Assembly (NCBI RefSeq): GCF_904067545.1
Contig: NZ_LR881183.1
Location: 624,277-688,276, forward strand
Length of the DNA: 64,000 nucleotides
DNA from: Thermococcus camini
GTDB taxonomy: Archaea > Methanobacteriota_B > Thermococci > Thermococcales > Thermococcaceae
Direction: 5' to 3'
Positions 55,696-58,642 of this stretch are shown here, one piece after another. The notes beneath the pieces are model-generated. The model worked only from the letters and a program-made list of their open reading frames with translations. It made no database searches and was not told where the DNA came from. The translations under genes were made by a program, and so were the position numbers. Position 1 is the first letter of the stretch, and every line of letters starts with the position of its first letter.

Positions 55696-56088
55696 ATGGC
55701 TATCTGGCAGGGAAGATCACTCAAGAAGCCTTCGGGCGGAAGGATTATCCTCGCTAGGAAGAAGAGGAAGAGGGAGCTCGGAAGGGAGCCCGCTTTCACC
55801 AAGGTCGGCGAGGACAGGGAGAAGAAGAAGATAATCAGGACCTACGGCGGAAACAGGAAGGTAAGGCTCATCGAGGCCCTCTACGCCAACGTCTTCGACG
55901 GCGGGAAGGGCAAGAAGGTCAAGATACTCAACGTCGTTGAGAACCCGGCCAACAGGCAGTACGTCAGGAGAAACATAATCACCAAGGGCGCCATCGTCGA
56001 GACCGAGGCCGGCAGGGCCATCGTCACCAGCAGGCCCGGCCAGGACGGAGTTGTAAACGCCGTCCTTATCAAGGAAGAGAGCGCCTGA
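55696..56088 (+). CDS. rps8e: 30S ribosomal protein S8e
   Basis: Archaeal/eukaryotic small-subunit protein, 130 residues: [16 protein letters not shown] is the universal S8e start; the [13 protein letters not shown]-like segment ([16 protein letters not shown]) and [14 protein letters not shown] follow. GAGGTGAGAAGA before ATG 55696. Single gene with TATA box CTTATAAACG at about 55627-55636. The left 70-bp repeat starts 25 bp after its stop. Confidence 0.96.
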
Positions 56089-56113
56089 ACTCTTTTCCCC
56101 TTTTAAATGTCAT

Positions 56114-56183
56114 CGTTAAGTACCGTTAACCCTAAAAACTTTACGCTACCGTTAACTTCTCTGGCCTTACGGGGGTTAACGAT
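56114..56183 (+). repeat. 70-bp direct repeat, left copy
   Basis: Runs from CGTTAAGTACCGTTAACCC to GGGGGTTAACGAT and is identical, base for base, to 57478-57547. Within it, CGTTAACCC (56124-56132) and GGGTTAACG (56173-56181) form a 9-bp inverted repeat, and a further GTTAAC lies between. It overlaps the last two codons and stop of the AlbA_2 gene. Confidence 0.97.
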
Positions 56184-57471
56184 GAACCATCTCGTACCTT
56201 CTCTGGGCACCTCTGCCTGTGGCTCTTGCGAGGCCCAGGGCTTCGAGCTTTTCAATCCTCTTTAACACGGCGGGCTTTGAGAGGCCGACGTACTCCGCTA
56301 TCTCACCGCTCCTCCTTGGGACAGTCAGGAACTCCAAGATTTTTCTGTCAGTATCATCCAAAAGCTCGTCAGTTTTCTTCTTGAAGACCACTTCAAAGCG
56401 GTTTGCACTGCTCTTAAACTCTACCTCCACGAGGCCGTGTTTTCTGCATTCCTCGCGGATCAGTCTTAGGCCGTAGCCGTACTTTTCGATGTAGCCCGCA
56501 TCGTACATAAGTCCGCAGAGGTTCGGGTTCCTCGGCACGTGTTCGGGGTCTTCGAGGTCCACTCCCGGCATCAGGCCCCCGGGATTTCTTATTACAATCA
56601 TGTCGGGATGAATGAAAATCCTAACGTCCGCGGGGATTGCGTAGTTCCTGTGGGCGAAGGCGTTTATTATCGCCTCCCTAACGGCCCTTAGGGGATACTC
56701 GGGCAGTTTGGTTCTCTTCGTTCTCGCCACCACTTCTATCGTGCTGAACTGGGAAAGGAGCTCCGCGTACATCTCATCTATAACCTTCCATACAGGCCCC
56801 CGGAACTCCCTGCTCCACACAGGTCTCTCTCCGTCCATTCTGACAATCCTGCCCCCTGCGTGCGGTATGAACTCCTCGACATCGGTGAAAAACAGGACTC
56901 CTGCATTCGTCAGCTTGTCTCCTTTAATCGCCTTTGCGCTCCTTAGGTAGCGGCTCCAGTCTTCCTCTGGGATACGTCTGCCCCTTGCCTTCTCCACCGC
57001 TGAGAAAAACCATTCCACGTATTCTTCCTTCGTCTTCGAGAGTTCTGCCGCGGGAAACTCGTCCCAGGTAACCGCCCCCAGCTCGGAGGAGAGCATGAGA
57101 ATCTCCTGGATTGAAAGGGGCCTTATCCCAGAGCCTATCCTGATGTAGGCAACTCCACCGATAGAGCAGAGGTTCCGGGACTTTGGAACTTCTATGACAA
57201 GGACGTTTCTGTCCCCAAGCTCAAGCGCGTGGGTTTTTACCTGAAGAGGAGGGGTGATGTTCTGGAGTGAGGAGGATATCGTTTCCCTAGCCTTTTTGAT
57301 GTCACATCCCAAAACATTGCCCTCGTCGCTTACACCTATAAGGATGTAGCCCCCGTCGGCGTTTGCCATGGCACATATCTCTCTGGCGATTTCAGGCGTT
57401 GCCCTGCGTTTGAACTCTATCCTCTCGTTCTCTCCTTGGCGAATGAGTGCCAGAAGTTCGTTCACGTCCAT
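56176..57471 (-). CDS. AlbA_2 / HATPase / winged-helix protein between direct repeats
   Basis: 431 residues. N-terminal AlbA_2 (Schlafen-type, old AAA_4) domain: NERIEFKRRATPEIAREICAMANADGGYILIGVSDEG. Middle to C-terminal half matches the RecG_C/HATPase_c_4 class: LRAVREAIINAFAHRNYAIPADVRIFIHPDMIVIRNPGGLMPGV. The last ~55 residues are a winged helix (RRSGEIAEYVGLSKPAVLKRIEKLEALG). Such proteins are often annotated as putative transcriptional regulators; a few are defence-linked. A TTTATAT TATA box (57546-57553) precedes the right repeat, and no ribosome binding site is evident. The gene plus one repeat looks like a discrete cassette. Confidence 0.85.
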   Translation of the reverse strand: MDVNELLALIRQGENERIEFKRRATPEIAREICAMANADGGYILIGVSDEGNVLGCDIKKARETISSSLQNITPPLQVKTHALELGDRNVLVIEVPKSRNLCSIGGVAYIRIGSGIRPLSIQEILMLSSELGAVTWDEFPAAELSKTKEEYVEWFFSAVEKARGRRIPEEDWSRYLRSAKAIKGDKLTNAGVLFFTDVEEFIPHAGGRIVRMDGERPVWSREFRGPVWKVIDEMYAELLSQFSTIEVVARTKRTKLPEYPLRAVREAIINAFAHRNYAIPADVRIFIHPDMIVIRNPGGLMPGVDLEDPEHVPRNPNLCGLMYDAGYIEKYGYGLRLIREECRKHGLVEVEFKSSANRFEVVFKKKTDELLDDTDRKILEFLTVPRRSGEIAEYVGLSKPAVLKRIEKLEALGLARATGRGAQRRYEMVHR

Positions 57472-57477
57472 GATTAC

Positions 57478-57547
57478 CGTTAAGTACCGTTAACCCTAAA
57501 AACTTTACGCTACCGTTAACTTCTCTGGCCTTACGGGGGTTAACGAT
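57478..57547 (+). repeat. 70-bp direct repeat, right copy
   Basis: Identical to 56114-56183. Lies six bases upstream of the AlbA_2 gene start, between its TATA box and ATG, so the mRNA leader would be made of repeat sequence. GTTAAC words at the TATA-proximal edge would suit a repressor operator. Confidence 0.97.
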
Positions 57548-57562: not shown

Positions 57563-58642
57563 TCAGAGCTCCAGCTCGTCCCTGTACTTCCGCAGCTCCT
57601 TCTCCATTATTTTCCTTGCCTGCTCCTCAACCATCGGTTTGACCAGCTCGATGACGCGTCTCTTCAGCTCATCCAGGCCTTCACCGTTGAGCGCCGAGAT
57701 TCTGAGGGGTTCGAGCCCCTTGGAGCGGACGAAGTTCTCAACAGTCTTTATTTTCTCCTCGTCCGCTATGTCCACCTTGTTGAGGACAACGATGAAGGGG
57801 AACTCGCCGAACTCGGCGTAGATTTCCTCGAACAGGTGGGTCTGCTCTTCAATCGGATAGCCGCAGTACTCACTGGGGTCGAAGATGTAAACTATCACCT
57901 TTCCGAGGTGCTTTAAAGCCAAGATAGCCTGTCTCTCGACCTCGTTCCTCTCGCTCAGCGGCCTGTCGAGCAAACCCGGTGTGTCTATGACCTGGTATTT
58001 CAGGTAGTGCTCCTCGAACTGGCCGACGTTTATGCCCTTGGTGGTGAAGGGGTAGCTGGCAACCTCGGGTCTGGCGTTCGTCAGCACCCTGAGGAGCGTG
58101 CTCTTGCCGACGTTGGGATGACCTGCTATCACGACCGTCGGAAGGTTGAGATCAACGACCGGGAGGTCTTTGAGGACGTTTCTGGCCTGGTTGAGGTACT
58201 CAAGGTCGTCGGCGATGTCCCTGATGACGTCGGCGACGCGGCCGTAGAACTGCCTGCGGAGCCTTGACATCTCGTCCGGGTCGCGCGAGTATCGTATCTT
58301 CTCGGCGTAGCGCTGCTCAAGGTTCCGTATCGTCTTTATTGCCCAGTTGACGTGGGCCAGGGAGCGGTGGAACTGGTCGCGATCAACGAGCGTATCAACC
58401 AGCTCCCTGTAGAACGGAGGAAGTTCTGAAACCCCCGGTGTCCTGTCCAGCAGTTTCTTCAGGTTGTCGCGGATGACGTTGGAGATCGTTCTGATTCTCA
58501 GCTCTTCCCTCTGCCTGGCCTTGGCCCTGGGGCCGCCCTTGGGGGTGAGGGCCGAGGCCGCTTTCTCCGCTCTCCTGAAGGCCTTATCGATAATCTCGTC
58601 AGCGGTAAGAACAGTGGGCATCTTCTCAAAAGGATTTCTCAT
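57563..58642 (-). CDS. Nog1/Obg-type GTPase
   Basis: 359 residues. Long helical N-terminal domain (MRNPFEKMPTVLTADEIIDKAFRRAEKA, NOG1-N type) followed by a TRAFAC GTPase domain: P-loop VVIAGHPNVGKSTLLRVLTNARP, switch PFTTKGINVG, G3 DTPGLLDRP, G4 VLNKVDIA, G5 ISALNGEG. Eukaryotic Nog1 acts in large-subunit assembly; a similar role in archaea is likely. GGGTGATG precedes the ATG. Confidence 0.93.
   Translation of the reverse strand: MRNPFEKMPTVLTADEIIDKAFRRAEKAASALTPKGGPRAKARQREELRIRTISNVIRDNLKKLLDRTPGVSELPPFYRELVDTLVDRDQFHRSLAHVNWAIKTIRNLEQRYAEKIRYSRDPDEMSRLRRQFYGRVADVIRDIADDLEYLNQARNVLKDLPVVDLNLPTVVIAGHPNVGKSTLLRVLTNARPEVASYPFTTKGINVGQFEEHYLKYQVIDTPGLLDRPLSERNEVERQAILALKHLGKVIVYIFDPSEYCGYPIEEQTHLFEEIYAEFGEFPFIVVLNKVDIADEEKIKTVENFVRSKGLEPLRISALNGEGLDELKRRVIELVKPMVEEQARKIMEKELRKYRDELEL

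Follow-up and report, generated by a model that had tools for sequence, protein, structure and literature searches.

A candidate autoregulated one-gene cassette, bracketed by two word arrays, at the rps8e-nog1 junction of Thermococcaceae

Within the 64,000-nt stretch of the Thermococcus camini genome that was analyzed (the window), a single gene combining Schlafen AlbA_2, GHKL ATPase, and winged-helix domains lies between two identical 70-bp direct repeats, each an array of short words. We favor, with a probability of roughly 60%, the reading that this is an autoregulated gene with a binding array at both ends, which would be lost by recombination between the arrays and regained by transfer. 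This reading builds on the structure of the arrays, the conservation of the downstream array at the level of its words, the presence of empty sites in relatives, horizontal transfer of the gene, and at least one phylogenetically nested loss.

The two repeats (56,114 to 56,183 and 57,478 to 57,547) agree at 70 of 70 bases, are oriented alike with respect to the gene, and lie 1,364 nt apart from start to start. The gene (minus strand, 56,176 to 57,471), which encodes a protein of 431 amino acids, is flanked on the left by the convergent rps8e (plus strand, 55,696 to 56,088) and on the right by nog1 (minus strand, 57,563 to 58,642). The right, upstream copy, hereafter U (minus strand), ends 6 nt before the ATG, and the left, downstream copy, D (minus strand), supplies the stop codon (56,176 to 56,178), as the earlier note on this DNA had claimed. 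The perfect repeats described there proved to be the only two copies in the whole genome, the next matches being 14 and 27 nt long; a third array is absent, which rules out a dispersed repeat family or regulon. When flanking direct repeats were scored for 289 open reading frames of the window and 15 homologous regions of 18 to 20 kb, the 12 copies of the AlbA_2/GHKL gene scored 28 to 70 and the 277 control frames at most 12.5; the repeats are not due to chance and, among the frames scored, are specific to this gene.

The domain architecture proposed from the letters alone was recovered by domain matches to SLFN_AlbA_2 (1.7e-22), HATPase_c_4 (4.5e-18), and an AsnC-type HTH (3.8e-8), in the order expected of COG2865-type proteins (PDB 3lmm, DIP2311), with which the protein shares both domain order and fold. 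The profile match to the COG2865-type protein 3lmm has an E value of 3.4e-25, and in a PDB fold search the AlphaFold model (pLDDT 86, pTM 0.61) matched 3lmm best (E 4e-23), followed by Schlafens; the literature searched reports neither a function nor flanking arrays for COG2865-type proteins. The AlbA_2 domain has the ExxxxExK active-site motif in common with the Schlafen endoribonucleases SLFN11 and SLFN14, whereas the archaeal protein is set apart from them by its additional, fused GHKL ATPase and winged-helix domains. The motif residues E14, E19, and K21 are invariant in 26 aligned homologs and align with the SLFN14 motif, E206/E211/K213 (PMC12215978); a nearby aspartate, D49, is not conserved throughout the homologs. 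Because the motif is present and invariant, nuclease activity is possible. PADLOC found no known defense system, its matches (to pAgo and CARF models) covering parts of domains only, on which ground this assignment was rejected; cargo of plasmids or viruses was rejected as well, since only distant relatives, of no more than 34% identity, occur there. In genome G022 (L009), AGG replaces the ATG, and a GTG farther downstream is probably the start codon.

Each array contains six words of the form ACCGTWAA/TTWACGGT, which in gene orientation run reverse, reverse, forward, reverse, forward, forward, with the dyad TTAACGGT-AGCGTAAA at the center; the four GTTAAS words and the inverted repeat CGTTAACCC/GGGTTAACG noted earlier are likewise present in both copies. 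The words of U are, in gene orientation, ATCGTTAA (57,540 to 57,547), CCCGTAAG (57,530 to 57,537), TTAACGGT (57,512 to 57,519) and its dyad partner AGCGTAAA (57,504 to 57,511), and TTAACGGT twice more (57,486 to 57,493 and 57,476 to 57,483), the sixth starting 2 nt outside the 70-bp identity. The words of D, from the sixth to the first, occupy 56,112 to 56,119, 56,122 to 56,129, 56,140 to 56,147, 56,148 to 56,155, 56,166 to 56,173, and 56,176 to 56,183 (span 56,112 to 56,183). Between the fourth and fifth words of U, which flank and abut it, lies a presumed TATA element, TTTTTAGG (minus strand, 57,495 to 57,502), about 25 nt before the ATG, so that U would be a promoter with an operator array rather than the mRNA leader it had been taken for. 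Words that overlap a presumed promoter are what is expected of an autoregulated operator, and the repeats, read in this way, are consistent with binding by the winged helix.

D has been conserved differently. The fifth T of the TATA element is retained in 12 of 13 U copies at rps8e-nog1 and in all 8 upstream arrays located elsewhere but in only 3 of 13 D copies. In D, spacer columns vary more (0.402) than word columns (0.168), a contrast reached in 1 of 10,000 permutations of the columns and in 0 of 71 shifts of the mask; the words had been set by eye on one sequence and were then tested on others. The word scores of U and D are alike (43.5 and 43.6, of 48). With its words constrained and scoring equally to those of U, and with the TATA T mostly lost, D appears to be under selection for binding rather than for promoter function. 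Words are likewise constrained in solo arrays, which occur without the gene (see below; 2 of 10,000 permutations), and 9 of 12 of these arrays are D-like at the fifth TATA base. The stop codon of every gene at rps8e-nog1 is that in the CGTTAA of D, and gene copies located elsewhere, which have U only, end in unrelated sequence.

According to the mechanism we propose, each repeat would be an array of six words to which the bracketed protein binds. The overlap of U with the presumed promoter makes autorepression by the protein most likely; D would be a promoterless copy of the array that starts in the stop codon, and the gene could be looped out if the GHKL ATPase bridged the two arrays. Array, gene, and array would together form a one-gene cassette that has no recombinase: if the two arrays recombined, the gene would be deleted and one array left, as at the empty sites, and DNA from another species would restore the gene at the same site, the mover presumably being ordinary homologous recombination. 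Two points weigh against the cassette: members with an upstream array only, both in the subfamily and among methanogen relatives (L135 to L137), show that D is dispensable for having the gene, and solo arrays keep their words without the gene, a state that pure decay would not be expected to leave in place for long. Regulation alone could also account for D, as a second operator acting by looping, a roadblock, or insulation between the convergent genes, with a dispensable gene moved and lost by ordinary homologous recombination and the repeats merely easing deletion. The constraint on D words while the TATA is lost points in this direction, as does the recurrence of arrays at both ends, with unrelated words, in distant relatives; however, upstream-only members are common, and this explanation, which is not fully separable from the autoregulated cassette, seems to us rather unlikely.

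The site was compared across 94 genomes of Thermococcaceae, one per species. The gene with two repeats occupies rps8e-nog1 in 13 of them, at gene identities down to about 71%, and is broken between the two repeats in 2 (G055 and G001). Another 13 genomes (G039, G044, G071, G054, G036, G018, G048, G059, G067, G064, G066, G053, and G056) have one repeat and no gene there; rps8e is visible across the solo repeat in 10, the remaining ones reaching a contig end or a different neighbor, and the flanks of the solo site align nearly base for base in G039, G044, G071, and G054. Because several of these assemblies are incomplete, the gene is most securely absent from the near-complete genomes G039, G044, G071, G054, G036, G018, G059, and G067. 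At many junctions, that of G023 among them, no repeat is recognizable. The relatives thus give a mixed answer to the earlier note: many keep the same gene and both repeats with diverged sequence, yet gene-less sites with exactly one remaining copy, as it had anticipated, are found in close relatives, alongside sites with none. For this subfamily in these genomes, two repeats always mean rps8e-nog1; members elsewhere (G005, G007, G010, G011, G083, G084, and G093) have the upstream array only, and G047 has a different type (72% amino acid identity) at rps8e-nog1.

Several related genes and remnants were observed in the same genomes. G039 encodes elsewhere a relative of 63% identity (L328, 4,531 to 5,817, on G039:C1) whose upstream array has a different word, TTAACGAAA, and in G013 a related wHTH/GHKL coding remnant (L077, 1,324 to 1,569) abuts the 3' end of nog1. 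A region of G084 (L325, G084:C4:270000-289990) contains two AlbA_2 genes and a third starting nearby, about 15 kb apart in all, with a TTAACGG array only at the subfamily member. In a Thermococcaceae paralog of 33% identity (L029, G073:C1:373663-377934), which adjoins a second paralog copy, the 3' end and the upstream side share a direct repeat (121/128) that contains ATGAGTCAA words.

Identity at fourfold-degenerate sites is far higher in the gene than in its neighbors for G033 and G061 (0.91 versus 0.51, p 5e-25), G015 and G042 (0.83 versus 0.43, p 7e-23), G061 and G042 (0.80 versus 0.50), and G031 and G029 (0.85 versus 0.55, p 3e-9), whereas gene and neighbors are alike within the clade of G000, G015, G033, and G022. 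Judged by these differences, the gene is moving horizontally between species without its neighbors, as a unit independent of them, in agreement with what had been suggested. Identity drops near U on the nog1 side, although the boundary can be placed only roughly because rps8e is conserved, and hence uninformative, and the nog1 end evolves fast in general. Loss is evident as well: in trees of nog1 and of pyrG, nog1, and DUF4013, the solo genome G039 is the sister of the double G015 (98/98) within a clade of doubles that inherited the gene vertically. Since G039 nests among gene-bearing sisters, precise loss has occurred at least once, deletion between the repeats being the simplest history by parsimony; G044 is consistent with a second loss, its place in the tree being less decisive, and in some lineages the solo site could be a pre-insertion site, not a scar. 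In evolutionary terms, the cassette is mobile.

The cassette has features in common with several classes of mobile DNA. Att-flanked integrated elements, such as that of A. veneficus with its 55-nt att direct repeats (PMC4158269), likewise have perfect direct repeats and a single copy at the empty site, but the cassette contains a single gene, with neither integrase nor recombinase between the repeats, has no tRNA target, and is bracketed by word arrays that include a presumed promoter. Nor is it an insertion sequence or transposon: a transposase is absent, the repeats are direct rather than inverted, and the site is constant. Free-standing homing genes likewise show presence or absence at one intergenic site, horizontal regain, a nuclease motif, and some broken copies; in the cassette, however, insertion does not disrupt the recognition site, the target array being intact on both sides of the gene in occupied alleles. 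One may ask whether the protein, by means of its Schlafen-type motif, itself cuts or synapses the arrays and so makes its gene home or excise, given the invariance of E14/E19/K21, the alignment with SLFN14, the repeated transfer to the same site, and the single array at empty sites. We consider such active mobility unlikely, since the two complete arrays of occupied sites would be unprotected from cutting, unlike in classical homing, the Schlafen nucleases studied act on RNA, and homologous recombination gives the same pattern.

The layout appears older than the identity in T. camini suggests. In most genomes, U and D, which mostly differ by 5 to 25%, are less alike than either copy is to its counterpart in other species, U to U and D to D; the two-repeat layout at rps8e-nog1 is therefore, on sequence comparison, old and predates several species splits. 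In type 3 (G029 and G031), distances of 0.08 for U-U and 0.14 for D-D, against 0.25 for U-D, rule out concerted evolution of the whole array in all lineages. In T. camini, D has bases of the U type, among them TTTTTAGG, at which the D of its five type-1 relatives has C, and bases peculiar to this species are present in both copies, so the 70/70 identity probably reflects local conversion of D by U. U also pairs better with its own D than with the D of other genomes (0 of 5,000 permutations for all types, 6 of 720 for type 1), and some homogenization or transfer as a unit therefore does seem to occur. Among the causes of identity that had been listed, namely recent duplication, gene conversion, and selection, conversion thus fits and duplication does not. 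A recent tandem duplication or fresh insertion, for which the perfect identity would speak, is very improbable: 12 other genomes have the double structure at rps8e-nog1 with repeats and genes that have diverged, this structure is older than several species splits, and the species-specific bases are shared by both copies, as conversion predicts.

Iteron-controlled rep genes, such as P1 repA and F repE, are autoregulated, encode DNA-binding proteins, and have short iterated binding words before and after them. The cassette has such words on both sides but is chromosomal, lacks a replication initiator domain, and repeats the whole array as a unit. That it is or was a mini-replicon whose words serve copy control and handcuffing, as the upstream iterons and downstream inc array of P1 and F would suggest by their geometry, is very improbable, as the protein has no Rep-family match in Pfam, PHROGs, or NCBIfam and the neighbors inspected appear chromosomal.

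Arrays at both ends recur far beyond Thermococcus. Methanosarcinal genes are bracketed by direct repeats of their own words (66/70 at L282; 88/110 at L281, L281/L134), as are 7 of 9 relatives in the phylum of the micrarchaeal genome G094 (L283, 63/63; L288, 74/75; L290, 83/87; L286, 88/91; L291, 36/38; L289, 42/51; L285, 23/25). The words of these methanosarcinal and micrarchaeal-phylum arrays are private: ATGCGTAAA, GGCGCGTAAA, TGGCAAAA, TGGCGAGAAA, TTGCGTTAAG, ATTCGTTAA, and ATCGTTACC. G094 has five paralogs, each with a private repeat pair, and the arrays searched genome-wide (L283, L288, and L290) have exactly two full copies each. Since these genomes are largely metagenome assemblies, misassembly of an individual locus is possible; the pattern, however, is found on more than one contig and in more than one genome. 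Flanking arrays are mostly absent from bacterial homologs; the clear exceptions, L159 and L187, look like dispersed repeats or duplicated genes. The literature searches found no description of such arrays. A more speculative reading, which we consider less likely than not, is that of a family-wide, recombinase-free selfish or defense gene of archaea, in which a Schlafen-nuclease/GHKL/winged-helix protein evolves a private word, arrayed at each end, for self-control and exchange between genomes. For a widespread, uncharacterized architecture, the array-bracketed gene offers a first concrete handle: a binding word can be predicted for each protein and an operator for either end, and empty as well as occupied alleles exist in nature. 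Paralogs with differing words, such as the five of one micrarchaeal genome, constitute a natural set for winged-helix specificity, and gain, loss, and transfer at one site are open to study in genetically tractable Thermococcus hosts.

Two micrarchaeal loci have further surroundings of note. On G094:C64, a two-gene unit flanks the array-bracketed L289 on both sides (L320, 1,778 to 3,859 and 5,386 to 7,407), a larger duplication around the gene. On G094:C2 (L322, 2,335 to 3,618 and 3,762 to 5,018), a further AlbA_2-like gene is convergent to the paralog L291, so that the downstream array of L291 lies between two converging relatives.
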